Position numbers and translations under genes: made by a program. The notes below the pieces were generated by a model. The model was given only the letters and a program-made list of their open reading frames with translations. It searched no databases and had not been told where the DNA came from. A DNA stretch of 35,375 bases from Spirochaetales bacterium (lineage in GTDB: Bacteria; Spirochaetota; Spirochaetia; DSM-2461), in the NCBI GenBank assembly GCA_028532905.1, contig JAQQAM010000207.1:1-35375 (forward strand), in the 5' to 3' direction. Shown here piece by piece: positions 7,652-33,054 of the stretch (positions within the stretch are counted from its first letter, which is position 1; every line of letters begins with the position of its first letter).

Positions 7652-8134
7652 ATGAATGAAACAATTTACAGTTTTGATGCAAAAAGTCTGAAAGGGGAGG
7701 ATATCTCCCTGGAACAGTATAAAGGCAATGTGGTACTGGTTGTGAATACTGCCAGTAAATGCGGTCTGACTCCCCAGTATGAAGGGCTTGAAAAGCTCTA
7801 TAAACAGTACAAGGATAAAGGGCTTGTTATACTGGGATTCCCCTGCAATCAGTTTGCCGGTCAGGAACCGGGGGATGAAAAAAGCATATCAGAAGTCTGT
7901 CTGATCAATTACGGAGTGAGCTTTCCCATGTTTTCAAAAATAGATGTAAACGGCAGCGAAGCTCATCCGCTATATAAATTTCTGAGAAGCCGGCTCAAAG
8001 GTTTGGGGGGAGATAAAATCAAATGGAATTTTACCAAGTTTCTTATTGACCGGGAAGGACGTCCCGTCCGGCGCTTTGCTCCTACTGTTAAACCGGAAGC
8101 TCTTGAAAAACACATTCTGAAGCAGCTGGCCTGA
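7652..8134 (+). CDS. Glutathione peroxidase-family thiol peroxidase (cysteine form)
   Basis: A 160-residue member of the GPx family. The active site is Cys37 in [12 protein letters not shown], so it is the cysteine, not the selenocysteine, form; the other tetrad residues are visible as Gln71 in [11 protein letters not shown], and Trp125 and Asn126 in WNFTKF. Bacterial proteins of this kind usually take electrons from thioredoxin rather than glutathione, with Cys83 as a possible resolving cysteine. It reduces hydrogen peroxide and lipid hydroperoxides in the cytoplasm. The ATG at 7652 follows GAGG. It is the first gene of an operon with an OhrR-type regulator 4 bp downstream and carries OhrR-like operators in its promoter, so induction by organic peroxides is likely. 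Confidence 0.93.
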
Positions 8135-8138
8135 GACT

Positions 8139-8576
8139 ATGAAATACGATTCCCTGAAACTGGAAAATCAGCTCTGCTTCCCTGTGTATGCCGCCTCACG
8201 GCTAATCACGAGAGCCTATCAGCCTCATCTGGAGAAACTGAGCCTGACCTATCCTCAGTATCTGGTTCTAATGCTGCTATGGGAGCAGGAAGGACTGACG
8301 GTGAATGAAATTGCCGGTAAACTGATTCTGAATACAAACACCGTTACACCCCTTCTGAAAAGGATGGAGCAGCAGGGGCTTCTTCTTCGGGAAAAGTCTA
8401 AAGAGGATGAACGGAAAGTTATTATCCGCCTGAGCCCGGAAGGATTCGCCCTCAGAGAAGAAGCTCTTGCTGTTCCGGAAAGTCTGATTCGGGAAATTGG
8501 CAAAACCTCATTCACCATGGATGAATTAATGCAGCTTAAAGGCGAACTGGACCGTCTTGTTGATGCCCTTCGGTAA
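8139..8576 (+). CDS. ohrR: OhrR-type MarR family peroxide-sensing repressor
   Basis: A 145-residue winged-helix regulator. The N-terminal phrase KLENQLCFPVYAASR carries Cys13, at the place of the redox-active Cys15 of B. subtilis OhrR, followed by the typical LTYPQYLVLMLLWE. The helix-turn-helix (LTVNEIAGKLILNTNTVTPLLKRMEQQG) and the wing (SKEDERKVII) also match OhrR closely. Oxidation of Cys13 by organic hydroperoxides should release it from DNA. Only one conserved cysteine is seen, so it looks like the 1-Cys type. It is translated 4 bp after the GPx gene and so controls its own operon through the palindromes at 7591-7636. Unusually the target is a GPx gene rather than ohr. Confidence 0.92.
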   Translation: MKYDSLKLENQLCFPVYAASRLITRAYQPHLEKLSLTYPQYLVLMLLWEQEGLTVNEIAGKLILNTNTVTPLLKRMEQQGLLLREKSKEDERKVIIRLSPEGFALREEALAVPESLIREIGKTSFTMDELMQLKGELDRLVDALR

Positions 8577-8629
8577 AAAACGGAAGATGTTCGGGAAAAG
8601 GGTGAAGTGAAAACAGTGAAGTAAGGATA

Positions 8630-8651
8630 GCCCCCTTCCCGGAGGAGGGGA
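8630..8651 (+). other. Imperfect GC-rich hairpin between ohrR and the UPF0489 gene
   Basis: CCCCCTTCC pairs imperfectly with GGAGGAGGGG. There is no T-run, so a terminator is doubtful. The right arm contains the strongest Shine-Dalgarno-like bases before the UPF0489 gene, so it could also mask a binding site. Confidence 0.3.
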
Positions 8652-8672
8652 TAAACCTGTAAAATCCTGAAT

Positions 8673-9461
8673 GTGGAAAAGTGTCTTGCCGGCAGTACAA
8701 CTGTCTATACCGTTCAATCCCATAATCAAGTACTGGAGGCCTGGGAAACCTGTCCTGGTCTGAATGTCTTTTCTCTGGACTATCATACTGATACAAAAGA
8801 AGCCTTTGGCAGTTATGCCTACTGGCGGACAGACAGTGAGCTAAAGGCCGGCAGCTGCGGGAATCCGGATGTACGGAGACGGGAACTGGCACAGGATAAA
8901 ATACAGGCTTATCTGGATGGTAAAATCGATATCAGGGGAATTAATGATAATCTGAAGCATGATGAGCACATGGATTTCGCTGTTCGCAGCAATATTATTT
9001 CATCGGCTTTCGTTCTTTCTGTGAACCGGAACAGCAGCTCCTCCAACCCATATGTGTATATTGAAGGGTGTGATATAGAGTACTCAGGTCAACCCATTAT
9101 GGAATACTCTATGCCCTGCATTCCCGGCTGTTCCAGAGATTCTCATGATCAGGACTGTTTCAGGCGGTATAGAGACGCCTGTATTGATGACTCGGTTCTC
9201 AGTATGGCTGTCGGAATGGCAGAGTCCCTTAATCCCGGCTTTTTTGATGCCTTTATCCTTGATATTGACTGTGACTACTTCAATACAGAGGAGAGTCTTC
9301 ATCCCTCATCATCAGAGGTTTTCAAATCACTGATCAGAAAAGCGGCTTTAGTAACCATTGCCCTGGAACCGGAATGTGTTAAAATCTGCAGAATGGAAGG
9401 CTGTCAGCTGGAGAGCCGGCAGATTGCAGATGAGCTGAAGATTATAATCGGGAATGCCTGA
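8673..9461 (+). CDS. UPF0489 family protein
   Basis: About 262 residues. Segments characteristic of UPF0489 (the C5orf22-like family) are an N-terminal TVYTVQSHNQVLEAW, the acidic SLDYHTDT near residue 38 and a late ILDIDCDYF. The histidine and aspartate residues in these segments suggest metal binding and an arginase/deacetylase-like fold, but no reaction is known. The start is uncertain: the annotated GTG at 8673 has no good ribosome binding site, and an in-frame stop at 8652 excludes a long extension. It follows ohrR by 97 bp on the same strand and converges with the diguanylate cyclase gene (6 bp between stops). Function cannot be deduced from neighbours. Confidence 0.8.
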   Translation: MEKCLAGSTTVYTVQSHNQVLEAWETCPGLNVFSLDYHTDTKEAFGSYAYWRTDSELKAGSCGNPDVRRRELAQDKIQAYLDGKIDIRGINDNLKHDEHMDFAVRSNIISSAFVLSVNRNSSSSNPYVYIEGCDIEYSGQPIMEYSMPCIPGCSRDSHDQDCFRRYRDACIDDSVLSMAVGMAESLNPGFFDAFILDIDCDYFNTEESLHPSSSEVFKSLIRKAALVTIALEPECVKICRMEGCQLESRQIADELKIIIGNA

Positions 9462-9467
9462 ATCTGT

Positions 9468-11111
9468 TTATCCGGGAGTCTGGCCGGAAGTCTTCCCGGG
9501 AGCTTCCTGAGAAACGACCCTGTTTCTTCCCTGTCTTTTGGCCAGGTAAAGACGATTGTCTGTAATTTTCAGAAGATCTCTCAGGGTGAGGCGTTTATCA
9601 ATTTCAGCAATCCCCATGCTGACAGTCACAGTCTCGGGTTTGTTGTTCCAGAAGGATTCCACAGCAAAGCGGGTTTTTTCAGCCAGAGCAGCTGCCCCTT
9701 CCAGTGTTGTATCAGGACAGATAATCAAAAACTCTTCTCCACCCCAACGTCCGGGAATATCGGTCTGTCTTAAGGTGCTGCAGAAAATCTCTGCCACTTT
9801 TACCAGAACAGAATCTCCTGTGTCATGTCCCCAGGTATCGTTGATGATTTTAAAATGATCAAGATCTATCAGACACAGACAAAAGGGGCTTCCTGTTCTC
9901 AGATACCGTTTGTATTCCTGTTTCAGGAACGTGTCCAGGTGCCGCCTGTTGGCAATGCCCGTCAGCTGATCCGTGTTGGAAAGAGTTAGTAATTCCTTAC
10001 GCTGTTCTTCCAGTACTCTGTTTTTTTTCAGAAGTTCATCCCCGGCCATTTCCATTGTTCTTTTTGCGATGTGTCCGATTTCGTTATCCGGATAGTGAAA
10101 GGCCGTCTGGGGAAGCTCCTTCCCTTTTACAAGAATCTCGGTGTGCTGTTTCAGCTGCTGCAGAGGCTGAATAATTCTTCTGGCAAGGGTATTGCTCTGT
10201 GTATAGCCGAGAAACAGGGACAGTAGAAATACAGTTGTCAGAACCAGGATAATATCCTGTATGATGGGAACCAGGATCTCTTTTTTATCCACTGCTGTGA
10301 CAATCACCCAGTCTGCAGATGGAATCTTACTGTAAAAGGCAGTCTTTTTTACACCATCATAGGCATAAGAAAAAGTACCCCTGCCTTCAGTAAAATCGGC
10401 GGGACTGATTTCCGGAACCTCTTCAAAGAGATTATGTTTTACCCGGTCCGGATGGTAATGGATAATCATTTCTCCGCCGTCTCTGAATATGTAGCTGTAG
10501 GCGGAATTATAATTCGTGAGGGTCTTGCGCAGCAGTATATTCAGAAGATTCAGGTTGTAGTCCAGAGCAACGACTCCCGTTACCTCTCCCTGACTGTCTA
10601 TAAGAGTTCTGGATGTTGCAGAGAGCCAGGTCTTGTCAATAAACTCCTGATAAGGCTCGCAAACGGATGCTTCAGGACTGTTTTCCAGGGCATTGATATA
10701 CCAGGGGCGTAAGCGGGGATCAAAGTCTTCAGGAGTCTCATAATCATTAATAAGCAGGGTTCCGTCTGCATAGCCTGAATACAGGTATGTGATATAATCG
10801 TTGGTGTCCGTAATCAGTCTATATATATCCAGTACCGCCGCTCTGTCCGGTTCATCTCCTTTTTCCCCATAAATAATAATTTCCATACTTGAGAGAAAAT
10901 CAATTGTATTTTTAGTCTCCCTGAGGAAATTGTCCATAAAGTTATTCAGGTAACTGTTTCTGTCTTCAATGATCTGACTGACCGCTGAGATTTTCTGTTT
11001 GAACAGGATAAATGAAAAGATAACCCCCATCATAAGCACTGTAAGTGTGGAAAAGAGGACACTGCTTCTGAAAAGCGTGTTTTTTACAGATTTATTGCCT
11101 GTACTCAGCAA
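9468..11111 (-). CDS. dCache-HAMP-GGDEF diguanylate cyclase
   Basis: A 547-residue inner-membrane enzyme making cyclic di-GMP from two GTP. A first membrane segment (about 18-38) leads to a periplasmic dCache domain with the ligand-site phrase DPRLRPWY near 131, then a second membrane segment (about 283-303), a HAMP-like linker and a GGDEF domain. The active-site signature is GGEEF (457-461), and the product-inhibition site RxxD is intact as RQTD (448-451), so the enzyme should be active and feedback-regulated. Its Cache domain implies control by an external small molecule. Translation starts at a TTG (11111) with a weak GGGG site; no better in-frame start is visible. It stands alone. Confidence 0.92.
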   Translation of the reverse strand: MLSTGNKSVKNTLFRSSVLFSTLTVLMMGVIFSFILFKQKISAVSQIIEDRNSYLNNFMDNFLRETKNTIDFLSSMEIIIYGEKGDEPDRAAVLDIYRLITDTNDYITYLYSGYADGTLLINDYETPEDFDPRLRPWYINALENSPEASVCEPYQEFIDKTWLSATSRTLIDSQGEVTGVVALDYNLNLLNILLRKTLTNYNSAYSYIFRDGGEMIIHYHPDRVKHNLFEEVPEISPADFTEGRGTFSYAYDGVKKTAFYSKIPSADWVIVTAVDKKEILVPIIQDIILVLTTVFLLSLFLGYTQSNTLARRIIQPLQQLKQHTEILVKGKELPQTAFHYPDNEIGHIAKRTMEMAGDELLKKNRVLEEQRKELLTLSNTDQLTGIANRRHLDTFLKQEYKRYLRTGSPFCLCLIDLDHFKIINDTWGHDTGDSVLVKVAEIFCSTLRQTDIPGRWGGEEFLIICPDTTLEGAAALAEKTRFAVESFWNNKPETVTVSMGIAEIDKRLTLRDLLKITDNRLYLAKRQGRNRVVSQEAPGKTSGQTPG

Positions 11112-11189
11112 AATTTACCCCGATTGTTTTAAATTATTAAATCCTGTCTTACCCGAACACTGATAAACGACGGAATAAAACAATACCAT

Positions 11190-11205
11190 CAATAATATAT
11201 TATTG
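11190..11205. other. AT-rich palindrome upstream of the diguanylate cyclase
   Basis: CAATAATATATTATTG is a perfect 16-bp palindrome. It lies within a wider pair of arms, AAAACAATA (11177-11185) and TATTGTTTT (11201-11209). It could be an operator for the divergently oriented upstream region of the cyclase gene, or part of the end of the LacI gene transcript. Confidence 0.4.
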
Positions 11206-11230
11206 TTTTCCTAAGGTAAATTGACCAGGG

Positions 11231-11265
11231 AAAAAAATGATAAAATATATTTAAATTCATTTTAT
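11231..11265 (-). terminator. AT-rich probable terminator of the LacI-type gene
   Basis: On the minus strand ATAAAAT (11259-11265) pairs with ATTTTAT (11240-11246) and is followed by a run of seven T. It lies 19 bp after the regulator stop codon. The stem has no GC pairs, so it is weak. Confidence 0.4.
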
Positions 11266-11283
11266 GCTTAAAAAATGACGGGT

Positions 11284-12312
11284 TCAATCTATATTATGAA
11301 CAGTTTTAATTTCCACCGGAGATTTTATCCATTTATCCGGGGTACTGGGATGACCCATCAGATGCTGTACCATAATTTTTACCGGCAGATAGCCCTGATT
11401 AACGGGATCCTGGCATATGGTGAAATCGATATACCCTTTCTTGAGACCTTTTATGACTTCGGGAATCTCATCATTGCAGATAACCCGGACTTTTCCGAGA
11501 AGACCACTCTGTTTTACGGCTTCCATGGTAGCGGCAACCTTTCCAGTAGAAATAAATATCCCCTTTACATGCTGTTTCACTTCGGGATCGGCGAGCACCG
11601 CGGAAAAAGTATCTCTTTTGTATGGATTGTAACCTTCGATAATCCGTATGTCATAGTCCTTTGAGTATTCCTTCATTCCGTCAACAAAGCCGGTTATTCT
11701 TTCTGTATGAGCCTTAAAATCGGACTTTCCGGCCACAGCCAGAACAAGTGACGGACAGGGAGTTAGTTTATGCATCAGATCTGCTGCCACCTTGCCCCCT
11801 TTGTACAAGTCCTGTCCTACATAGCAGAGTCCTTTGTCACTTTGAATATCAGAATTGTAGGTAATAAAGGGAATCCCTTTCTCTGCCATGCTGTTCAGTT
11901 TCTCCCTGAGTTCCGGAACATCAGGCCCGGTAATAATCAGCCCTGCAATGCCCTCGCTCATAAGAGAATCCAGCTGTTCTGTAACGGCTGATATATTTCT
12001 GAAGTTCATATGAACTGCTGTGATGAGAGTGCCCATTTCTCTGTACTCTTCCTGTGCCTTAGCCAGACCTGTCTGGATAAAGCTGAAGAATGTGGAGTCC
12101 GTATCGGGCAGTATAAAGACAATCTTTTTAGGTTCCTTGTGAAGGGAAAGCGCCCTTGCCGCCGTATTGGGAAGGTACTCCATGGAAGCGGCAATCTCTT
12201 TTATTCTGCGGGCTACATCGGGATTAACTCCCTCTCTGTTATGGAGGGCTCTGTCTACAGTTCCTCTGGAGACTCCGGCCTTTTCAGCAATTTCCCTGAT
12301 CGTAACAGCCAA
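11284..12312 (-). CDS. LacI family transcriptional regulator
   Basis: A 342-residue repressor of normal family length. The N-terminal helix-turn-helix (IREIAEKAGVSRGTVDRAL, 5-23) and hinge helix (NTAARALSLH, 49-58) are followed by a periplasmic-binding-protein-like sugar-sensing domain with typical phrases such as IAGLIITGP and YVGQDLYKGG. The ligand is probably a sugar or related metabolite but cannot be named. The start is a TTG at 12312 with AAGGAG 10 bases upstream; no better in-frame ATG exists near the helix-turn-helix. It follows the desaturase gene by 86 bp on the same strand, and a LacI-style palindrome lies in the desaturase promoter, so it probably controls the desaturase and itself. 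Confidence 0.9.
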   Translation of the reverse strand: MAVTIREIAEKAGVSRGTVDRALHNREGVNPDVARRIKEIAASMEYLPNTAARALSLHKEPKKIVFILPDTDSTFFSFIQTGLAKAQEEYREMGTLITAVHMNFRNISAVTEQLDSLMSEGIAGLIITGPDVPELREKLNSMAEKGIPFITYNSDIQSDKGLCYVGQDLYKGGKVAADLMHKLTPCPSLVLAVAGKSDFKAHTERITGFVDGMKEYSKDYDIRIIEGYNPYKRDTFSAVLADPEVKQHVKGIFISTGKVAATMEAVKQSGLLGKVRVICNDEIPEVIKGLKKGYIDFTICQDPVNQGYLPVKIMVQHLMGHPSTPDKWIKSPVEIKTVHNID

Positions 12313-12348
12313 TCTTATACAACTCCTTCTAACAGCAGCATTCAGAGC

Positions 12349-12377
12349 CTGCCTGACAGATTCAGATTGTCAGGCAG
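12349..12377 (-). other. Hairpin between desaturase and LacI-type genes
   Basis: CTGCCTGACA (12349-12358) and TGTCAGGCAG (12368-12377) form a perfect 10-bp stem with a 9-base loop. No T-run follows on either strand, so it may be an RNA-stabilising 3' structure or partial attenuator between the two genes rather than a full terminator. Confidence 0.5.
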
Positions 12378-12398
12378 TGTGCAGAATCACTCATCCGC

Positions 12399-13430
12399 TT
12401 AGTTCATCCGGAATGGAGCTGCGCCCTCCGGAAGGGTCTGCCAGTAACGGTATTCCGGGTCAGACTTCTGTTTTTTATCAATTCTGAATACATGTGCCAA
12501 CCCCCTCCAGTATCCTTTCAGAGGTTCGGGAAAATCATGGCGGATCAGTTTGTTCAGCTTCGGCAGATTGTAAAAGGGAACTCCCGCAAACATATGATGG
12601 TCTATATGATACTGCATATTGCAGTAAAGGAAACCGGCAAGGGGACCCAGGTTGGTATTGTAGCATATGGCTCTCCAGTCAGGAATCTCTGAAGGAAGAC
12701 CCTTATGCTGGAGCATACCGCAACCCTTGGAGTAGAAGGTTCCGATAAAATATCCGAAAGAGACCAGAACGGCCAGTATCCATAGTTTGTAATACAGAAA
12801 CAGAGCTGTCAGCAGAAGGTGTCCGATGATCATAAACCGTGCCCAGGCAATCATCTTTTTTTCTTCTTTACTCCCTTTTTCAAATAGAGGATTCCATGAG
12901 AAATAATCAATTTGGGTTTTACCAAGGGCATGAGCGAAAGTAGGGATAAAATACTTGCCCATTTTGGGTATATCTACAGTCAGCATAGCCAGTACCTGAA
13001 GAATTCCCAGACCCACCGGAAGGTCCCAGACTTCCTTGTCATGTTCTTTGTGTATTGTGTAGTGATGATGGGCTCTGTGGCTCGCTTTGAAATGCACAGG
13101 ACTGTTCCATGACAGAAAACTGAAAAGATTGTAGAAAAAGGCATTGAGTCCCTTGCTTTTAAAGACCGTACCATGGGACAGCTCATGTACAGCAGACTCC
13201 ATTCCCATGAACCCGCGGAAGGCTCCATGAAGATAAGCGGCAGCAATCATGGGAATCCACATCTGAGCCTGGAAGAAATAGAAAGCCCCATACAGGGTCA
13301 GGGCGAAAAGCAGGAGAAATCCTCCCATATGGAGCAGCCCTTTGGCGTCACTTCTTTTTGTCAGCTTTCGAAACTCCTCTCTGTCTACGGGAGTTTTATA
13401 CCAGTTAATTCTTTGATTTGTATCTGTCAT
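12399..13430 (-). CDS. Membrane fatty acid desaturase
   Basis: A 343-residue integral membrane diiron enzyme. The three histidine boxes are present: HELSH (82-86), SHRAHHHY (117-124) and a late YHIDHHMF near 275. Hydrophobic segments around 32-70, 140-160 and 195-225 fit the four-helix desaturase topology. It would use molecular oxygen and electrons from a ferredoxin or similar donor to introduce a double bond in an acyl chain; members of this superfamily also include hydroxylases and carotenoid enzymes, so the substrate is open. The ATG at 13430 has GAGGAGG upstream. The promoter and an 18-bp palindrome lie just before it, and the LacI-type gene follows. An oxygen-requiring enzyme argues that the host meets oxygen. 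Confidence 0.9.
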   Translation of the reverse strand: MTDTNQRINWYKTPVDREEFRKLTKRSDAKGLLHMGGFLLLFALTLYGAFYFFQAQMWIPMIAAAYLHGAFRGFMGMESAVHELSHGTVFKSKGLNAFFYNLFSFLSWNSPVHFKASHRAHHHYTIHKEHDKEVWDLPVGLGILQVLAMLTVDIPKMGKYFIPTFAHALGKTQIDYFSWNPLFEKGSKEEKKMIAWARFMIIGHLLLTALFLYYKLWILAVLVSFGYFIGTFYSKGCGMLQHKGLPSEIPDWRAICYNTNLGPLAGFLYCNMQYHIDHHMFAGVPFYNLPKLNKLIRHDFPEPLKGYWRGLAHVFRIDKKQKSDPEYRYWQTLPEGAAPFRMN

Positions 13431-13444
13431 ACCATCCTCCTCGT

Positions 13445-13501
13445 ACCGTGCCCGGGCACGGTGTCTGATTTGAATTATATAACAGTCCTGTCAGAATGCA
13501 A
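13445..13501 (-). promoter_or_regulatory. Desaturase promoter with LacI-type palindromic operator
   Basis: The minus strand has -35 TTGCAT (13496-13501), a 16-bp spacer and -10 TATAAT (13474-13479). Just after the predicted start is the perfect 18-bp palindrome ACCGTGCCCGGGCACGGT (13445-13462), centred on a CpG step. Its core GTGnnC-GnnCAC has the same symmetry as the ideal lac operator, as expected for a LacI family site. Confidence 0.75.
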
Positions 13502-13502
13502 G

Positions 13503-13527
13503 AAATTTCTAATAAAATTAGAAATTT
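13503..13527 (-). other. AT-rich inverted repeat upstream of the desaturase promoter
   Basis: AAATTTCTAAT and ATTAGAAATTT are perfect 11-bp arms with a 3-base loop, ending 1 bp before the -35 hexamer. They lie 36 bp after the small membrane protein's stop. It could be an upstream activator site for the desaturase or an AT-rich transcript end for the minus-strand genes before it. Confidence 0.5.
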
Positions 13528-13562
13528 AAATTAAAGTAAGTTAAAGCTAATTCATTTACCAA

Positions 13563-13916
13563 TCAATCTGCTGATCTTTTCTGATGGATGTGTGTCTGAA
13601 GACGCAATACGAATCCACCCACAATTATTGAAGATCCCGGCAGGGCTCCTATCATAAAAAAAGCCTTGTACAGATTCATCCAGTCCTCCACCTCGGGCGG
13701 TCCTGCTGACCCCTCTTCAGTAAACAGAACCGTTATGAGGATTATCCCGGCAGCAATGGTCAGGATTATCCATAACAGACCGATCAGACAGCCCTTCGGC
13801 CGGGACATATCTGTCTTTCCCATCTTTCTCAGGGATAGAGTAAAGAAAATAATTCCCGGTATTATAAACAGCAGGAACGAAACAAATCCGGTTAAAACAG
13901 CAATGGCACTCAACAT
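13563..13916 (-). CDS. Small membrane protein, unknown function
   Basis: 117 residues with three predicted membrane segments at about 5-28, 44-66 and 82-103 and a short loop, GSAGPPEVEDW, between the second and third. No family is recognised. The ATG at 13916 follows AAGGGTG. It starts 13 bp after the stop of the YD-repeat secreted protein on the same strand, so the two are probably cotranscribed. No catalytic motif is visible. Confidence 0.65.
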   Translation of the reverse strand: MLSAIAVLTGFVSFLLFIIPGIIFFTLSLRKMGKTDMSRPKGCLIGLLWIILTIAAGIILITVLFTEEGSAGPPEVEDWMNLYKAFFMIGALPGSSIIVGGFVLRLQTHIHQKRSAD

Positions 13917-13929
13917 GGGGTCACCCTTA

Positions 13930-14838
13930 TTAATAACTGGTTATTATAAAAAACAGTGTGAAGGGAAAGAGAATCTCCTCAGGAACTGATTCCAGCAGAA
14001 AGGCGTAGTTTCTAAAATAGGGACTGACAGGGTCATGACCATATCCCGGTCCATAGTGAAATGACATGATTGTTATACTTTCTCCGTCATCATGCTCTAT
14101 GGTGATAAGCCGGCCGTCTGAGTTATAGAGAAACTGAAAAGATTCCCGGAAGGTCTTCCCTTTAAAAATGAGACTCGTCAGATTCCCGGAATCATCATAG
14201 TTCAAAGAGTAGGTATTGATATTTTTTAATGAGTCCTTCAGATCAAATCTGGTTTCTTCCATCCTCATTACACGTCCGGATTCATCATAGAAAAAATCCA
14301 GATTTGTAATGCTGGAAGGCTCATTGCTGTTCTCTTTTCTCATCAGAATATGACGAAGAATTCCCTCTCGGTAGGTATATTCCACTTTTCCGGCATTTCC
14401 GGATTGAAAATCCCAGCTGTTGCCGGCAGGTAATCCTTTATCCGTATAACTGTATGATTCCAGCTCTCCATTAAACCAGGATTTCACAAGCTGACTGTTT
14501 TCATATTCCATTGATATAAGGGCTGAATAATTTCTTCCGGGAGAAACCACAGTATAGCGATAGTCCTGAGGCAGCATTGCGGTATTATAGCTTAACTCCC
14601 AATCGAGGCTTTTCCTGCTTTTACGGACATCCCTGAAACGGACCAGTCTGTCTTCACTGTCATATTCCAGTTCAATGTCTCTGTTTTCCTTCCGGCCGCT
14701 TTCCAAATTTACAGATGTGATCCGCTGCCCCATGCCCTCTGTACCGCTTTGAGCCGTTAAGGCAAAGCTGACAGATAAGATAAAAAAAACTATAGAAAGA
14801 TAAAATTTATTCTCCATGCGTATAAGTCCAGTGATCAT
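13930..14838 (-). CDS. Secreted YD-repeat (RHS-like) protein, unknown function
   Basis: About 302 residues. I chose the ATG at 14838, which has AAGGG upstream and fits the predicted transcription start near 14863; an ATG at 14868 precedes that start, and an ATG at 14817 would also keep the signal peptide. A signal peptide (FYLSIVFFILSVSFALTAQS) directs export. The mature part is mostly beta-strand repeats with YD-like phrases: YDSEDRLVRF, YDESGRVMRM, YDDSGNLTSL and YNSDGRLITI. Such repeats occur in RHS/teneurin proteins, which form shells or bind carbohydrate, but this protein is far too short to be a toxin-delivering RHS polymorphic toxin. It heads a probable operon with the small membrane protein. 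Confidence 0.7.
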   Translation of the reverse strand: MITGLIRMENKFYLSIVFFILSVSFALTAQSGTEGMGQRITSVNLESGRKENRDIELEYDSEDRLVRFRDVRKSRKSLDWELSYNTAMLPQDYRYTVVSPGRNYSALISMEYENSQLVKSWFNGELESYSYTDKGLPAGNSWDFQSGNAGKVEYTYREGILRHILMRKENSNEPSSITNLDFFYDESGRVMRMEETRFDLKDSLKNINTYSLNYDDSGNLTSLIFKGKTFRESFQFLYNSDGRLITIEHDDGESITIMSFHYGPGYGHDPVSPYFRNYAFLLESVPEEILFPFTLFFIITSY

Positions 14839-14869
14839 AGATACCCTTATTATTAAATACTTATACATG

Positions 14870-14898
14870 AGTATAGCAGTTGGAACATCCTTGTTAAA
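14870..14898 (-). promoter_or_regulatory. Promoter of the YD-repeat protein gene
   Basis: The minus strand shows -35 TTAACA (14893-14898), a 17-bp spacer and -10 TATACT (14870-14875), with predicted start near 14863. Confidence 0.55.
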
Positions 14899-14903
14899 GG
14901 AGG

Positions 14904-15239
14904 TTGAACTTTCAGAACTCGATCAAGGACTGGATTCCTGTTTCTGTGAATCTTTTCTCAAAACAGTTTATCCGGAAAAATCCGGATATCAGCTTCTTAA
15001 GGATTTCCCCTGTTCTGATGACAGGTCCCGGTTGGAACAGCTGGGGCTTTCAGGAAAAAGGAGGGGAGGATGATTATCGTCTGAACGCTTTGACCTGGTC
15101 ATGGGGACTGCGGCTGAGATCTACTGTTGCGGGAGTCATTTATATTGAAAATCCTGTATTTGATGCATTTCTGTATCTCTGGAAATCCCGGTTAACCTAC
15201 ACCTTTTCCCATGATTCCACATCCCCCTCTATTTCCTGA
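14904..15239 (+). CDS. Possible hypothetical protein (uncertain ORF)
   Basis: An open frame of up to 111 codons in a stretch (14869-15196) with no other gene. Its first codon TTG at 14904 directly abuts AAAGGAGG, too close for normal use; an internal ATG at 15021 would leave about 72 residues. The deduced sequence has a hydrophobic, aromatic-rich second half (WSWGLRLRSTVAGVIYIEN) and its end overlaps the 3' end of the pyrimidine dimer glycosylase gene by 43 bp. No family is recognised. It may be a real small gene, a decayed remnant, or chance; I list it so that the gap is documented. Confidence 0.25.
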   Translation: MNFQNSIKDWIPVSVNLFSKQFIRKNPDISFLRISPVLMTGPGWNSWGFQEKGGEDDYRLNALTWSWGLRLRSTVAGVIYIENPVFDAFLYLWKSRLTYTFSHDSTSPSIS

Positions 15240-22188: not shown

Positions 22189-23136
22189 TTAAATATGATT
22201 CAGTAAGCCCAGCTCTGCCGGGTGGGGATTCAGAAAATACTGCTTTATAAGATAGGATTCTTTATATTTCCCAGTATAGTGCCTGAGGAGGGTTAAGGGA
22301 ACAATAAGAGGAGAGTAGCCGTTGTAATAGAGCTCGCATTCCCTGAGAAGCTCCTGCTTTTCCTCTGGAGTCAGGTTTTTTTTGAAATACCCCAGAATAT
22401 GCAGAAGGACATTGTAATTGGTCTTTTTGGTTTTCTTTTCACGCAGCAAATTATTCAACTGTTTTCTGTATTCCTGTATGAGTGTATTGATATCCAGATT
22501 ACCTGCAGCAGCGGTCAGTTTACCCATAGCTTTCAAGAATTCGGGACTGTGAGCCATGAAGGTGTATTTATGTCTGGTATGGAACTCAACAATACTGCTG
22601 CTTTTCCTTTCAGAGACAGCCTGGCGCCAACGGTCCAGAATAAAAATGGATTCAATAAACTGTTCCCTTATGCCGTTGTCTTTCAGCCGGCCTTCATCCT
22701 CAACAGGTATATCGGGAAACCTCTGCATAAAGGCTTTTGCAAACAGGCCCTCCCCGTCATAGCTGACAGGGTTTCCTTTTTCGTTATAGATTTTAACCTT
22801 TCTCATACCGCTGGAGGGACTCTTTGTCTTGAAAATAAAGGCCATCAGATTCTCCTGTTCCAACTCCGGGAGTTTCTTCTGAATCCATTTTTCCATCTTT
22901 TCCGTATGGTCAATGCCGGTCAGGGACGTCATCAGCTTCTGTTGTTCACGGTTCCCCACAAGCCGCATGGTTTCTCTGGGAACAGGCAGTCCGCATTCCA
23001 CTTCCGGACAAACCGGAACAAAATCAAACCACTGACCCAGAACATCTGCTATATAGTGATCCAGTTTGTGCTGACTGTTGAAACGAACCTTGTTTCCCAG
23101 AAGACAGCTGCTGACACCAACTTTGATTTTATCCAT
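22189..23136 (-). CDS. DUF523-DUF1722 domain protein (YbgA-like)
   Basis: A 315-residue two-domain protein. The N-terminal DUF523 part has GVSSCLLG (about 7-14) with VPVCPEVECGLPVPRE (about 40-55), holding conserved cysteines that may bind a metal or cluster. The C-terminal DUF1722 part contains RHKYTFMAHSPE and YRKQLNNLL. The biochemical role is unknown. In E. coli a DUF1722 protein (YbgA) is encoded beside the photolyase gene phr, and related genes occur near cobalamin photoreceptor regulators, which hints at a light or UV response; here a pyrimidine dimer glycosylase gene lies about 7 kb away. The ATG at 23136 has AGCAGG upstream. The gene is followed closely by the GGDEF/EAL gene. Confidence 0.85.
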   Translation of the reverse strand: MDKIKVGVSSCLLGNKVRFNSQHKLDHYIADVLGQWFDFVPVCPEVECGLPVPRETMRLVGNREQQKLMTSLTGIDHTEKMEKWIQKKLPELEQENLMAFIFKTKSPSSGMRKVKIYNEKGNPVSYDGEGLFAKAFMQRFPDIPVEDEGRLKDNGIREQFIESIFILDRWRQAVSERKSSSIVEFHTRHKYTFMAHSPEFLKAMGKLTAAAGNLDINTLIQEYRKQLNNLLREKKTKKTNYNVLLHILGYFKKNLTPEEKQELLRECELYYNGYSPLIVPLTLLRHYTGKYKESYLIKQYFLNPHPAELGLLNHI

Positions 23137-27843: not shown

Positions 27844-28758
27844 ATGGAGGATCTTGAATATATGACCAAAAGATATTCCATAAGAATGGCCGCCCAGCTG
27901 AGCGGTCTCACGCCTCTATTGATCCGAACCTGGGAGAACAGGTATGGGGTTGTTAAACCGACACGCAGTGAGGGCAACCAGAGGCAGTATACTGATGAAG
28001 ATATAATCCGGCTCAGAACCCTGGGACAGGGAGTGGATAAAGGCTTCCGTATCGGACAGCTCAGTGGCATGAGCAATGATGAGATATCAGCTCTCCTAAA
28101 AGAAAAAAAACAGATGCAGAAAAAGGGCTCAGATTATTTATCCCTTTGTTTTCATGCTCTGGAGGATCTGGACAGTTCTCTTCTTGAGAATATTTTTGAA
28201 TCAGCTGTTATTGAGAAGGGTCTTATTCAGGCCATAGATGAAGTTCTGCTGGCTTTTCTGACGCGGGTAGGTGAAGGATGGAACCAGGGGGAATGGCAGA
28301 TTTATCAGGAGCATTTTGCCTCAGAAACAGTGAAATCCTTTTTGAGTGCCAAATTTCAGAGTTACCAGAAGAATCGCGACAATCCCTATGCTGTTGTCTC
28401 TACACCTTCCGGACAGGTCCATGATATTGGAGCGGCTGCAGCAGCTGTTGCCGCGGCAGCAGCCGGTTTCCACGTACTGTATCTGGGATCAGACATACCT
28501 CCTGAAGAACTGATTAATATAGTCAGCAAAACACAGGCTTCTGTTCTGATCCTGAGTATCGTCTTTCCCGGTAGTCCTGTACAGGTTAAAAGAGACCTTG
28601 ATATTCTTCACAGCAAACTTCCTGATTCCTGTTCCCTTTTTCTGGGGGGCAGTTCTGCCCAGTTTTTCAGCAGTTCCGAACGGACCAAACTCAGCAGGAG
28701 TATTATGGAGTTAATGAATCAGCTGCTCCTTCTTCGTGAAGAGATAATCAGCCGGTGA
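27844..28758 (+). CDS. CarH/LitR-like MerR-type cobalamin photoreceptor regulator
   Basis: A 304-residue regulator. The N-terminal MerR helix-turn-helix (SIRMAAQLSGLTPLLIRTWENRYG, 12-35) is followed by a helical cap and a B12-binding Rossmann domain. The cap shows the light-sensing W-x9-EH motif (Trp146, Glu156, His157), and His193 in the segment QVHDIG is the probable lower cobalt ligand; these align with Trp131, Glu141, His142 and His177 of Thermus CarH. It should therefore bind adenosylcobalamin, repress as a tetramer in the dark and let go of DNA when light breaks the Co-C bond. Starts at 27844 (AAGG close by) or ATG 27862 (GGAGG 11 bases away) are both possible. It overlaps the end of the convergent FakAB gene by 11 bp. 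Confidence 0.9.
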   Translation: MEDLEYMTKRYSIRMAAQLSGLTPLLIRTWENRYGVVKPTRSEGNQRQYTDEDIIRLRTLGQGVDKGFRIGQLSGMSNDEISALLKEKKQMQKKGSDYLSLCFHALEDLDSSLLENIFESAVIEKGLIQAIDEVLLAFLTRVGEGWNQGEWQIYQEHFASETVKSFLSAKFQSYQKNRDNPYAVVSTPSGQVHDIGAAAAAVAAAAAGFHVLYLGSDIPPEELINIVSKTQASVLILSIVFPGSPVQVKRDLDILHSKLPDSCSLFLGGSSAQFFSSSERTKLSRSIMELMNQLLLLREEIISR

Positions 28759-30550
28759 TTACGGCAACAGCAATAGCTCCCTGACCGGAATGCATACCAA
28801 CAATAGGAGATATGGAACTCATATAGTCGGGTGCCAGTCCTGTTGCCTGTTCGATGGAGCGGGCAAACTGTTCTGCTTTTGCAGGATCTGCAGCATGGAC
28901 GACAGCATAAGAGCGGATGCCTTTAATTCGGGCTGTTTCAGATATTATCCCACTGATTTTCTTCAATAGTCCCTTTCTGGTAAAGGCTTTATCAAAGGCA
29001 GTTCCTTTTCCCACAGCATTCAACGTAACAATGGGCTTCAAATGAAGGAAGGCAGCCAGATATCCCTTCATGGGGCTGACTCTTCCCCCTTTCACCATAT
29101 ATTTGAAAGTACTGACACTTACATAAATGTGTATCTTCCTTTTCAGTACTTCTGCAGATTCTGTGAGTTCTTTCAGAGATTTTCCTTCATTTGCCTGTCT
29201 GGCAATTTCCCTGACCAGAAGCCCTTGGGCGGCAGAGTTCAGGCATGTATCAATCACAGCTATTTTTTTCTCCCGGCTGTTATAGGGCTCAGCTGTTTTT
29301 GTCATCTGATTCCAGGTGCCGCTCAATGATTTTGCTACAGGAAGGACAATGATCCCGTCATAGTAATCGGTTAGATACTGATAGACCGCTTTAACCCTTT
29401 CTGCATCCGGAAGTGAACTTCCGGGGAATTCTTTCCGGCGGCTTTGTTCTCTGTAAAACTGTTCAGGAGTTATGGTCACCCGGTCCAGGAACTCATCCTC
29501 CCCCCAGCTCAGTTTATGATTGAGAACATGAATCTGTTCTGTATCCAGAATCTCCTGAGGTATATCGGCTATGGAATCGGTTAGAACCGCAATAGAACTT
29601 TTTCGATTGTTCACAACCTGCTCCTGCCGGATCATATCATCCGCCTTCTGTTCAGATAGGGTGCCGTATTTCTTTAATCGGGTTGCCACTTCATGGGGAC
29701 AGTTTGTATGTATATGAATCCTGGTTCTGTCCAGTCCCTCATTGATAATCAGAGAGTCTCCCAATTGAATCAGATCCTTTCTTAATTTATTCCGATGGGC
29801 TGTTTTTGTGTTGAGGAGCATCTCCGTACAGTAGCGGTATTGTGGTTTTTCTGTGGCTTTATGCCGGCTGATCACCGGGGACGCTGTTCCCCTGTCACTG
29901 CTGTCTATTACATTTTTTCTTAATGAAAGAGGAACGGGTCCTGAAAATCTGAGATTCTCCATTCCTTTCAAGAAGGAGACAAATCCGGAGGCTCCGGCAT
30001 CAAGAACATTGTTCTCCTTTAAAACCTGGAGCTGGTCTCTGGTTTTCTCAAGTACTGTACTGGCTCTCTTAAAGGCTCTGTGGAAAATATCATCAGGATT
30101 CCGCTTTTCCATACTCCCCTGATATATTGACTCTGACCAGGCTTTCAGAACGGTCAGCATGGTTCCTTCGACTGGATTATCTATTGATTCATAAGCCAGA
30201 GATACCGATTTCTGTGCTGCCTGTCCGAAGTCTTCCAGAGTCAGTTTATCTTTTCCGGCTGTATACAAAGCCAGCCCGTTCAGATACTGGGAGAAGATCA
30301 TGCCGGAGTTTCCCCTGGCACTGTATAGAGAAATACGGGCAATATCGCTTAATACAGCCGATGCAGATCTGGATGATTCCAGTCGTTTTACAATCATCGA
30401 AATGGTTCTGACCATATTGTTTCCCGTATCTCCGTCGGCAACAGGGAAAACATTTATTTTATTCAAATATTGTCTGTCATTATTAATATTCATAAATCCG
30501 GACAGAAATCCGTGATAAATCTGGTAGCCGTTCATCAAAGTCGTACTCAT
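28748..30550 (-). CDS. Fused fatty acid kinase: FakA (DAK2) - FakB (DegV)
   Basis: A 600-residue fusion. Residues 1-200 are a DAK2/DhaL kinase domain with the nucleotide-magnesium motif NVFPVADGDTGNNM (33-46), ARGNSGMIFSQYLNG (78-92) and LDAGASGF (183-190). A middle part (about 235-310) resembles the FakA linker domain. From about 318 a DegV domain follows, with AVLTDSIADIP (321-331), SLSGTW (408-413), VKGGRVSPMKG (486-496) and ISPIVGMHSGQGA (580-592). In Firmicutes FakB binds a fatty acid and separate FakA phosphorylates it to acyl phosphate, which enters phospholipids via PlsX/PlsY. Here both are one chain. The ATG at 30550 has GAGAGG upstream. It follows the XRE-B12 gene by 54 bp and is probably cotranscribed; PlsY is about 2 kb away. 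Confidence 0.88.
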   Translation of the reverse strand: MSTTLMNGYQIYHGFLSGFMNINNDRQYLNKINVFPVADGDTGNNMVRTISMIVKRLESSRSASAVLSDIARISLYSARGNSGMIFSQYLNGLALYTAGKDKLTLEDFGQAAQKSVSLAYESIDNPVEGTMLTVLKAWSESIYQGSMEKRNPDDIFHRAFKRASTVLEKTRDQLQVLKENNVLDAGASGFVSFLKGMENLRFSGPVPLSLRKNVIDSSDRGTASPVISRHKATEKPQYRYCTEMLLNTKTAHRNKLRKDLIQLGDSLIINEGLDRTRIHIHTNCPHEVATRLKKYGTLSEQKADDMIRQEQVVNNRKSSIAVLTDSIADIPQEILDTEQIHVLNHKLSWGEDEFLDRVTITPEQFYREQSRRKEFPGSSLPDAERVKAVYQYLTDYYDGIIVLPVAKSLSGTWNQMTKTAEPYNSREKKIAVIDTCLNSAAQGLLVREIARQANEGKSLKELTESAEVLKRKIHIYVSVSTFKYMVKGGRVSPMKGYLAAFLHLKPIVTLNAVGKGTAFDKAFTRKGLLKKISGIISETARIKGIRSYAVVHAADPAKAEQFARSIEQATGLAPDYMSSISPIVGMHSGQGAIAVAVITG

Positions 30551-30604: not shown

Positions 30605-31486
30605 TTACATCTGTTTGTTTCCATTAATTATTGCTTTAAAACCATCTTTTAATGTCTCTGAACAGTGCAGTACCGATGGAAATTTCTGTAACAAATCTGC
30701 ATCAACGCCTCTGCCTCCCAGGGATATGACTGTTTCGGAAAGATTCATTGTTTCCAGATGTTCAAGATAACTTTCCAGACCATTTTTATGGATAATCATG
30801 GAGCATGAGATTGTTATGGCATCCGGTTTGAAGCTTTTAATCATATCTTCAAGATCTCTGAGAGGGATATCAGTTCCCAGAAAAGCCGCTTCCCATCCTT
30901 CAGTTCTGAGCAGCTCATACAGCATGAAAAGAACAAGATCGTGATGATCAGAGGGAGCACAGAGTCCTATCCACCTGGGGGCAGGGGATGGCAGCTTTCT
31001 GTTTTCTGTTTCATCGTCAGCCAGTACTGAAATGATTTCTCTCATTTTCAGGCTGATCAGGTGTTCTTCGGAGACTGAGAGCACTCCAGATTCCCATAAG
31101 CGTCCTGTTTCTTTCAAAACAGGAATAATGATTCCTGTGTATGTCTCTTCCAGGGTTAATCCCGAATCCTGTTTCCAGGCTCTTATATAGGCTGTTGCTC
31201 TGGAAACATCCTGATGTTCAAGCAGTTTCAATATTTTTTGCAGACTGAAGGATTCAACGTTTTTATCTGCTCCGGCGGGAGCAGATTTGTCTGTGAACAG
31301 AAGACTGACGGAAATACTGAGAGCTCTAGCCAGACTGTATATCAAATCTTCACCGGGGAAACGTGTCCCCCTTTCATAATTGGCAATAGTGACCTGTTGA
31401 ACACCGACTTTCTCTGCCAGTTCCTTTTGAGTCATTCCTGAGTCTTTTCTGTAAAAGAGTAAGTTTTTTCCAAAAACACTATGCAT
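30605..31486 (-). CDS. XRE helix-turn-helix - cobalamin-binding fusion regulator
   Basis: A 293-residue protein from the ATG at 31486; the longer frame to 31543 adds a hydrophobic extension upstream of the promoter and is rejected. Residues 4-60 are a Cro/C1-type helix-turn-helix (TQKELAEKVGVQQVTIANYERG). The rest is a B12 cap plus B12-binding fold. The cap has W-x9-EH (Trp131, Glu141, His142), and His182 in SDHHDLV is the likely lower cobalt ligand. This is the CarH/LitR light-sensor module on a different DNA-binding head. The segment after the ligand has Val185 where CarH-like proteins have Gly, so cofactor binding may differ. It is divergent from DUF1295-plsY and heads a probable operon with the fatty acid kinase. 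Function as a light or cobalamin sensor is inference. Confidence 0.85.
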   Translation of the reverse strand: MHSVFGKNLLFYRKDSGMTQKELAEKVGVQQVTIANYERGTRFPGEDLIYSLARALSISVSLLFTDKSAPAGADKNVESFSLQKILKLLEHQDVSRATAYIRAWKQDSGLTLEETYTGIIIPVLKETGRLWESGVLSVSEEHLISLKMREIISVLADDETENRKLPSPAPRWIGLCAPSDHHDLVLFMLYELLRTEGWEAAFLGTDIPLRDLEDMIKSFKPDAITISCSMIIHKNGLESYLEHLETMNLSETVISLGGRGVDADLLQKFPSVLHCSETLKDGFKAIINGNKQM

Positions 31487-31493
31487 ATTAGAT

Positions 31494-31521
31494 AGTATAA
31501 CAAAAAGAAATATTAAAACAA
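31494..31521 (-). promoter_or_regulatory. Promoter of the XRE-B12 regulator gene, possibly leaderless
   Basis: -35 TTGTTT (31516-31521), 16-bp spacer, -10 TATACT (31494-31499). Only 7 bases separate the -10 from the ATG, and no Shine-Dalgarno is present, so the transcript may start at the A of the start codon. GAAATATT copies at 31507-31514 and 31522-31529 overlap this promoter. Confidence 0.5.
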
Positions 31522-31568
31522 GAAATATTTGAAAATATTGCAAATAGTAATTATTCTTAAAGAAAGAG

Positions 31569-31589
31569 CTGTAGAATAGAATTCTACAG
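31569..31589. promoter_or_regulatory. Inverted repeat before the DUF1295-plsY operon
   Basis: CTGTAGAAT (31569-31577) and ATTCTACAG (31581-31589) are perfect 9-bp arms with a 3-base spacer. The site is just downstream of a possible promoter (TTGAAA, 17-bp spacer, TATTCT) and 30 bp before the DUF1295 ATG. It is a good candidate operator, possibly for the divergent XRE-B12 regulator, since XRE proteins favour inverted repeats. Confidence 0.5.
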
Positions 31590-31618: not shown

Positions 31619-32419
31619 ATGATCGATTTCGTTAATACCTTTCCCATCTGGGCATCGTTAGTGTTCAGTATTATTATTAACTTTTCCTTTTTTTTAATTG
31701 CCCTGATCTTCAAAACAGATAAAGTAACAGATTTGTCCTATAGTCTGACCTTTGCTGTTCTGGCTCCGGTTCTCCTTTTCAGTGCCGGAAAGGGGTATTC
31801 ACTGATTCAGATTCTTCTAATGGGTTCCATTCTTCTCTGGGCCATCCGCCTGGGATCTTATCTGTTAAAGAGAATTCTTATTACTAAAACGGATGACCGT
31901 TTTGATGACAAAAGAAACAATCCTGCTAACCTGATCCGCTTCTGGATTCTGCAAACCACAGCGGTCTGGATTATAATGATGCCTTATACTTTATTTCTCA
32001 TATCCCGAAATATAGACCTGCCTGCAGGACTGGTGATTTTTGGATTTATTATTTTTCTCACAGGATTTATTATTGAGATTGTCAGTGATGTTCAAAAATT
32101 CCGCTTTAAGTCACAAGAACAGAATAAGGGGAAATGGATGGATAAAGGTTTGTGGAAATATTCAAGGCATCCCAATTATTTTGGAGAAATCCTTGTCTGG
32201 TGGGGGTTGTTTATCGTAGTTCTTCCTGGTTTAAGCGGATGGAATCTACTGACTGCTGCAGGACCTGTTTCAATTACACTGCTGTTGCTGTTTGTCAGTG
32301 GTATTCCTCTTCTGGAAAAAAGCGCAGAAAAAAAATACGGCAGTAACCCGGATTATATCAGATACAGAGACCGGACCAGTCTTCTTGTTCCCATGCCTCA
32401 TAGAAAGGAGAACCAGTAA
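31619..32419 (+). CDS. DUF1295 (steroid 5-alpha-reductase/ICMT-like) membrane protein
   Basis: A 266-residue protein with about six membrane segments. The C-terminal block [20 protein letters not shown] (about 178-197) is the family hallmark and is shared with isoprenylcysteine methyltransferases and steroid or fatty-acyl reductases, which bind their cofactor there. Its substrate is unknown; related genes often lie in bacterial lipid-modification clusters, including some controlled by LitR-type photoreceptors. The ATG at 31619 follows GGAG. The plsY start is 2 bp after its stop, so both are one operon, divergent from the XRE-B12 regulator. A role in modifying acyl chains or a lipophilic molecule is likely but unproven. 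Confidence 0.88.
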
Positions 32420-32421
32420 AG

Positions 32422-33054
32422 TTGATTTATCTGCTGCTCTTATCCTATCTGGCTGGTTCCTTTCCTTCTGCAGTGATAATCACTTATATCGCTGCAGGAC
32501 AGGATATAAGATCTTTGGGAAGCGGTAATGCCGGAGCTACAAATGTATACAGAGAGCTGGGTGCATCAGCGGCTGTTCCTGTACTTCTTATTGATTTTCT
32601 AAAAGCCTTTATACCTGTGTTTTTCAGTGAAGAGCTGATCGTTTTCTTTGGTGTTGAGGCCAATAAAGATCTTGTGAGCATCTTAATGATCCTTTTTGTT
32701 ATGGCAGGGCATGTTTTCCCTGTCTGGACACAGTTCAGAGGAGGGAAGGCTGTCGCCGCCGCAGCGGGGGGAATTTCTGCTTTTTTTCCACCGGCTGTTC
32801 CTTTCTGTCTTGCCGTTTTTTTGATTACAGCAGTCTTGTCTCACTATATTTCTCTGGCTTCCCTGATCACGGCCTGGGGGCTTCTCCTGTTTTATATTGT
32901 TTATCAGATGTTGAGACAGTATGAAATGCCATGGTTTACTCTGCTTTTTTTTCTTATCATTCCGGTACTGGTAACCTTTCTGCACAGAAAGAATATTAAA
33001 AGACTTCTGAAGGGTGAAGAGAATTCTGTCACCTTCAGCAGGAAATCTGAATAA
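32422..33054 (+). CDS. plsY: Acyl-phosphate:glycerol-3-phosphate acyltransferase
   Basis: A 210-residue polytopic membrane enzyme that transfers an acyl group from acyl phosphate to glycerol 3-phosphate, the first step of phospholipid synthesis. All three PlsY motifs are visible: GSFPSA (12-17), SGNAGATNVYRELG (34-47) and FPVWTQFRGGKAVA (99-112). Translation starts at a TTG (32422) with GGAG about 12 bases upstream, coupled to the DUF1295 gene. PlsX is not in the window, but the fused fatty acid kinase at 28748 makes the same acyl-phosphate substrate, so this cluster could carry external or recycled fatty acids straight into membrane lipid. Confidence 0.94.
   Translation: MIYLLLLSYLAGSFPSAVIITYIAAGQDIRSLGSGNAGATNVYRELGASAAVPVLLIDFLKAFIPVFFSEELIVFFGVEANKDLVSILMILFVMAGHVFPVWTQFRGGKAVAAAAGGISAFFPPAVPFCLAVFLITAVLSHYISLASLITAWGLLLFYIVYQMLRQYEMPWFTLLFFLIIPVLVTFLHRKNIKRLLKGEENSVTFSRKSE

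Follow-up and report, generated by a model that had tools for sequence, protein, structure and literature searches.

An XRE-type helix-turn-helix protein with a CarH-like cobalamin module: a candidate light-released repressor in Spirochaetota and Bacillota

The window analysed here (the whole stretch of 35,375 nucleotides) carries a gene that raises the question of what a CarH-like cobalamin sensor does when it is joined to a DNA-binding head of another kind: whether it still binds its cofactor, which operators the head recognizes, which genes are controlled and what signal is read. The gene and the parts of its product, referred to below as the XRE-CBD protein, are:

30605..31486, minus strand: XRE-CBD regulator gene, 293 aa, ATG at 31486
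Residues 12-62: helix-turn-helix (HTH); about 66-81: flexible linker; 82-160: four-helix cap; 171-292: Rossmann B12 domain
Key residues: W131, E141, H142, axial H182, V185 and G204-P208

Domain plan and fold of the XRE-CBD protein

The first-pass annotation had read the product as an XRE head fused to a CarH-like B12 module, and Pfam domains and fold both bear this out. HTH_3 (PF01381) covers residues 12-62 (7e-13, 48.9 bits against a cut-off of 23), B12-binding_2 residues 83-155 (1e-8) and B12-binding residues 173-263 (2.5e-12), all three above their curated cut-offs, and Pfam gave no match to a MerR-type DNA-binding domain in the protein. Trp131, Glu141, His142 and His182, together with Val185, were found at the positions given in that annotation. 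The NCBIfam CarH model aligns only to residues 83-268, its score of 61 bits falling below the cut-off of 400, and NCBIfam has no family for the protein. Sequence matches in the PDB were to CtMerR, CarH and the photocobilins for the sensor and to Cro/C1-type proteins for the head. The HTH, linker and B12 module account for all 293 aa, so that the biliverdin-binding globin domain carried by photocobilins, which have no HTH, is absent. The gene is present as a single copy in its own genome.

An AlphaFold model built with 33 sequences (pLDDT 91.7, pTM 0.73) predicts a sensor that matches the B12 domains of photocobilins, CtMerR and CarH. The head is set off from it by a single flexible segment, residues 68-77 in the model. 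The B12 module of the photocobilins (SasPcob, AbDPcob) was the top structural match (VIA Z 22.6-23.6, the highest value being that for 8j2w), followed by the B12 domain of CtMerR from Chloracidobacterium thermophilum (PDB 8jbs/8jbt; Z 20.9 for 8jbs) and by TtCarH (5c8e, Z 19.7 over 197 residues at 2.4 A), while Foldseek placed full-length TtCarH first (E 1e-11). AppA SCHIC domains were also among the structural matches.

The XRE-B12 family and its predicted cofactor pocket

In a scan of contigs from named genomes a single-sequence query recovered no relative but an alignment-based query did, finding XRE-B12 proteins in Spirochaetaceae, Spirochaetales MAGs, Thermohalobacter berrensis, Petrocella, Natroniella and several Clostridium species; a phylum scan added more. 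A homologue is carried by the cultured relative Clostridium tetanomorphum. Nine genomes from the same family have orthologues (36-44% identity), and more distant orthologues were found outside that family. The protein is thus no peculiarity of a single genome; it belongs to a family in Spirochaetota and Bacillota, from which 33 XRE-B12 proteins were aligned. In a tree of the B12 domains the Spirochaetaceae group around the window forms one clade (98/92); a single origin of the XRE fusion was also considered, and on this point the tree gave no resolution.

The annotation had further suggested a distinct class of regulator, a claim that holds to the extent that no described family with exactly this XRE-B12 plan was found among curated families or in the open-access literature, where no paper that links CarH and cobalamin to XRE was found either. 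The family is apparently undescribed so far. To our knowledge no characterized XRE (Cro/C1) member has a B12-binding sensor. A 2024 signature survey refers in a general way to 'HTH' fusions of light-responsive B12 domains and, in the portion of its text available, does not describe an XRE head; its strict GxxH element, as given there, would miss the window protein (PMC11796333).

Eight residues (G128, W131, E141, H142, H182, G204, S227 and G258) are invariant in all 33 aligned proteins. Of the four elements of the light-responsive B12 domain signature (SignatureFinder), GxxW (G128-x-x-W131) and EH (E141-H142) are present in 33/33 and GxxxP is present as G204-P208, whereas at the place of GxxH the window protein has S179-x-x-H182; here Gly is found in 23/33 relatives and the His is invariant. 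The change of Gly to Val after the axial His, to which the annotation had drawn attention, is real but not particular to one protein: among the 33, Gly stands at position 185 in 22, Val in 8, Ala in 2 and Ser in 1. Val marks a Spirochaetaceae sub-clade: within the window's clade the residue is mostly Val, with Ala in two members and Gly in one.

These substitutions bear on the possibility of a corrinoid-independent regulator in which, as in class II LitR and AppA SCHIC, the B12 domain has degenerated and has no role beyond assembly or the binding of a partner. Val185 for the Gly of HxxG, Ser179 for the Gly of GxxH and the structural matches to AppA SCHIC domains would suit such a protein, but loss of the axial His would be expected in a degenerate domain, whereas 33/33 keep this residue as well as Trp131, Glu141, His142, Gly204 and the tail motif Ser227/Gly258. 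We therefore regard this reading as very improbable.

The residue after Trp131 corresponds to His132 of TtCarH, the second ligand in the light state, which is needed for efficient light disassembly, the H132A protein largely remaining tetrameric (PMC10442372). In the XRE-B12 family it is never His (0/33): it is Glu in the window protein, and Glu in 14, Ala in 7 and other residues elsewhere in the family. The position is variable among light-responsive B12 domains, and CtMerR is reported to be a dark tetramer that monomerizes in the light though it lacks the second His, having Arg at this position and a Glu-water contact in its place (PMC11796333). With Glu at this position the window protein is in that respect most like CtMerR, from which it differs in that CtMerR has a MerR head and strict GxxH and HxxG motifs. 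As His132 is missing in both, the light step of the XRE-CBD protein probably differs from that of TtCarH.

Operators and promoters

The intergenic region upstream of the regulator contains four elements:

31494..31512, minus strand: predicted operator O1, TATTTCTTTTTGTTATACT, an imperfect inverted repeat at -26 to -8 from the ATG
31536..31552, no strand assigned: predicted operator O2, AATTACTATTTGCAATA on the minus strand, centre 40 bp from O1
31529..31557, plus strand: candidate promoter of the divergent DUF1295-PlsY operon, TTGAAA-17-TATTCT, a weak consensus match
31569..31589, no strand assigned: perfect palindrome with 9-bp arms, CTGTAGAATAGAATTCTACAG, unique in the 5-Mb genome

O1 overlaps the extended -10 (TGTTATACT) of the XRE-CBD gene. 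In the window it is a degenerate palindrome, and its position and C-N5-G core are conserved in orthologues. An unbiased search for upstream motifs returned TATAAC-N5-GTTATATT for the window clade, its distance from the ATG nearly constant at -25/-26, and aACACA-N3-TGTGTTA for the wider family; in each, a C and a G occupy mirror positions six apart, and the right arm extends into the extended -10 box. Motif likelihoods were 98.6 for the Spirochaetaceae clade (45-49 for shuffled sequences) and 165 for the wider set (53-57 shuffled), and mirrored base pairs numbered 54/80 against 25 expected and 78/119 against 32, values not reached in 20,000 random draws. The fixed position of promoter and operator, 25-26 bp before the ATG in nearly all orthologues, supports ATG 31486 as the start; a TTG start at 31543 was rejected, since O1 and the -10 would fall inside the extension. 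The short fixed distance to the ATG also suggests that transcripts may be leaderless in many members.

A second site was sought with a leave-one-out symmetric matrix, the threshold being the 95% shuffled maximum. Most upstream regions have one, at 20-22, 30-31, 39-42, 49-51, 60-61 or 81 bp, that is, at multiples of about 10 bp that place both sites on the same face of the DNA (R=0.82, 27 pairs). With one set per lineage (16 hand-picked distances) the Monte-Carlo p for this phasing was 5e-6, a value to be read with the caveat that kin share spacings by descent and that the lineages were chosen by eye. Where a divergent operon is present (seven loci), a -10-like box of that operon directly adjoins the second site and matches at 5 or 6/6, whereas at loci without such an operon the -10-like match is mostly 4/6. 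In the window, the divergent DUF1295 gene has a weak candidate promoter with a -10 that matches at 4/6, and O2 sits between the -35 and -10 of this promoter.

The first-pass annotation had placed DNA binding at repeats within 31507-31589 and had expected the head to bind inverted rather than tandem direct repeats. The latter expectation agrees with the palindromic form of the conserved predicted sites. As to the repeats, 31494-31512 and 31536-31552 are conserved palindromes, but the perfect palindrome at 31569-31589, although real, is absent from orthologues; being also out of phase with O1 and O2 (35 and 75 bp by coordinates), it was rejected as the main XRE operator. It is possibly located in the DUF1295 transcript leader and may be a leader hairpin or the site of another protein. 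The further suggestion that the protein probably binds as a dimer appears too simple, because pairs of palindromes in helical phase suggest that two dimers act in concert. Such pairs, together with the flexible linkers (15-59 residues between head and sensor across the family), suit a dimer of dimers. The arrangement recalls CarA of Myxococcus xanthus, two dimers of which bind inverted repeats cooperatively (PMC9304148); CarA, a CarH paralogue, differs in its MerR head and in being B12-independent.

Judged from sequence, the XRE-CBD protein resembles XRE (Cro/C1) one-component repressors in its HTH_3 head, its palindromic operators over the -10 and its presumed autoregulation. An activator, the cobalamin-bound form of which would recruit RNA polymerase in the light or in the dark, is the least probable of the readings that we considered: the sites lie over the -10 of the regulator's own gene and of the divergent partner promoter, the usual place for repression. 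Genome-wide matches to the operator pattern with one mismatch were about equal to, or barely above, those of the reversed-pattern control, so that a large regulon was rejected and the regulon looks local and small.

Neighbouring genes, probable targets and proposed signal

The genes around the regulator are:

31619..32419, plus strand: DUF1295 membrane protein, divergent neighbour and probable target, a conserved neighbour in relatives
32422..33054, plus strand: PlsY-type glycerol-3-phosphate acyltransferase, part of the probable target operon
28748..30550, minus strand: DAK2 (FakA-like)-DegV (FakB-like) fusion, downstream of the regulator, a conserved island gene
27844..28758, plus strand: MerR-CBD (CarH/LitR-like) regulator, 2 kb from the XRE-CBD gene

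The fusion, 600 aa long, unites a kinase domain (DAK2/FakA-like) with one for fatty-acid binding (DegV/FakB-like); the fatty acid kinases known to us have DAK2 and DegV as separate proteins. A fatty acid desaturase gene at 12399-13430 (minus strand) is another membrane-lipid gene in the window. When the ORFs around XRE-CBD genes were clustered and assigned with Pfam, an RND pump with its membrane-fusion protein was found at 12 loci, the DAK2-DegV fusion and PlsY at 7 each and DUF1295 and lipocalin at 5 each. A lipocalin gene lies directly behind a B12 regulator of XRE or MerR type at four loci (L083 9443-9973, L087 9075-9599, L088 10631-11152 and L099 10398-10967); none occupies that place in the window.

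The MerR-CBD protein of the window keeps W..EH and HDIG and has Asn where TtCarH has His132. In the congeneric genome G003 its MerR-CBD orthologue, 50% identical to it, heads the lipocalin-DAK2/DegV-DUF1295-PlsY genes, and no match to the XRE-CBD protein was found in that genome. As the island stands under MerR-CBD in G003 and has both regulators in the window, two B12 regulators with different heads appear to serve one island.

Photolyase was present in 13/35 genomes searched and lay within about 8 kb of the XRE-CBD gene in 5/13, representing about four lineages; given about one photolyase per 4-Mb genome, we estimate the chance of such proximity at about 0.4% each. In L093 the photolyase start overlaps the XRE-CBD gene translationally, in L107 photolyase is the fourth gene of a divergent operon (8132-15187, minus strand) after those for the membrane-fusion protein, RND pump and outer-membrane channel, in L044 it lies nearby in convergent orientation, and it is also near the XRE-CBD gene in L084/L089. 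No photolyase was detected in the window's own genome, and phytoene synthase was found neither there nor in 11/12 other genomes searched, so that carotenoid control was rejected. With these classic targets absent, the targets in this genome would be the adjacent lipid genes. We found no open-access papers on DUF1295 together with light and photolyase. A 2-thiouracil desulfurase (DUF523)-DUF1722 protein is encoded at 22192-23136 (minus strand), though the genome has no detectable photolyase; DUF1722 (YbgA) is an operon partner of photolyase in E. coli, and a homologue stands beside photolyase in L084/L089. Use of B12 by this genome is supported by its three cobalamin riboswitches, together with a partial match to an adenosyltransferase.

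CarH is reported to be an AdoCbl-bound tetramer in the dark that falls apart in the light (PMC4557120), and its operator consists of tandem 11-bp direct repeats, nnnnTnnACAn (PMC9304148). The XRE-CBD protein shares with CarH and class I LitR the same B12 module in sequence and fold, the Trp/Glu-His/axial-His set and a probable role in the regulation of stress genes. It differs from them in having an XRE instead of a MerR head, predicted inverted-repeat operators in phased pairs, no His132, and lipid, efflux and photolyase rather than carotenoid genes for neighbours. We lean, with some reserve, towards its being a one-component AdoCbl-dependent dark repressor that is CarH-like apart from its head and is released by light. 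Architecture, ligand residues, fold match, palindromes at the -10, helical phasing and neighbourhoods were computed, and from them we infer which cofactor is bound, the oligomeric state, that light is the signal and that transcription is repressed. In the dark AdoCbl would be held where the helix bundle faces the Rossmann domain, His182 being its lower ligand and Trp131, Glu141 and His142 surrounding the adenosyl group. The B12 domains would then assemble as a dimer of dimers, the flexible linkers allowing the XRE heads to pair so that each pair grips one of two same-face palindromes, and the bound assembly would close its own promoter and, if a promoter of the adjacent operon faces it, that one too. 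Light would break the Co-C bond and loosen the assembly, allowing expression of membrane-lipid, efflux and photolyase genes.

In favour of a light-released repressor we count the domains, the invariant AdoCbl residues, the fold match, the palindrome at the -10, the spacing phase, the photolyase linkage, the MerR-CBD gene in the same island, the cobalamin riboswitches and the CtMerR precedent. Against it we count the absence of His at the His132 position in every member, SxxH for GxxH and Val185 for the Gly of HxxG, an own genome without photolyase or phytoene synthase, the degenerate O1, operator matches barely above control, and the many clostridial hosts, for which light is a less obvious signal. 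The main rival, which we judge unlikely, is a light-independent sensor of B12 form or of redox state or oxygen, in which loading with AdoCbl or another corrinoid would set assembly and DNA binding and light would have no physiological role. Loss of His132 throughout the family, hosts that include clostridia and Spirochaetales MAGs, and the lack of carotenoid and photolyase genes in the own genome all suit such a sensor, and the pump neighbours fit general stress control; it sits less well with the linkage of photolyase to XRE-CBD genes in several lineages, with adenosyl-surrounding residues kept without exception, with the MerR/CarH-type regulator in the same island and with the response of CtMerR to light without a second His.

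For the family as a whole the light-released repressor can be extended to a more tentative proposal, to which we give a little less than an even chance. XRE-CBD proteins may form a separate, widespread class of AdoCbl photoreceptor-repressors in Spirochaetota and Bacillota that span palindromes in helical phase at one promoter or at two facing promoters, need no bis-His light state for switching and control efflux, photolyase and the remodelling of membrane lipids, not carotenoids, with MerR and XRE heads exchanged at the same locus. The predicted operators, a short palindrome with helical spacing, make the regulon directly testable, and a family in which every member lacks the His132 of CarH is a natural test of B12 photoreceptor signalling without bis-His ligation. 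If the proposal is correct, the modular palindrome-binding head would supply green-light gene switches with a new part, and B12-based light sensing would be tied neither to MerR proteins nor to carotenoid control and would reach anaerobe-rich lineages in which light responses have been little studied.
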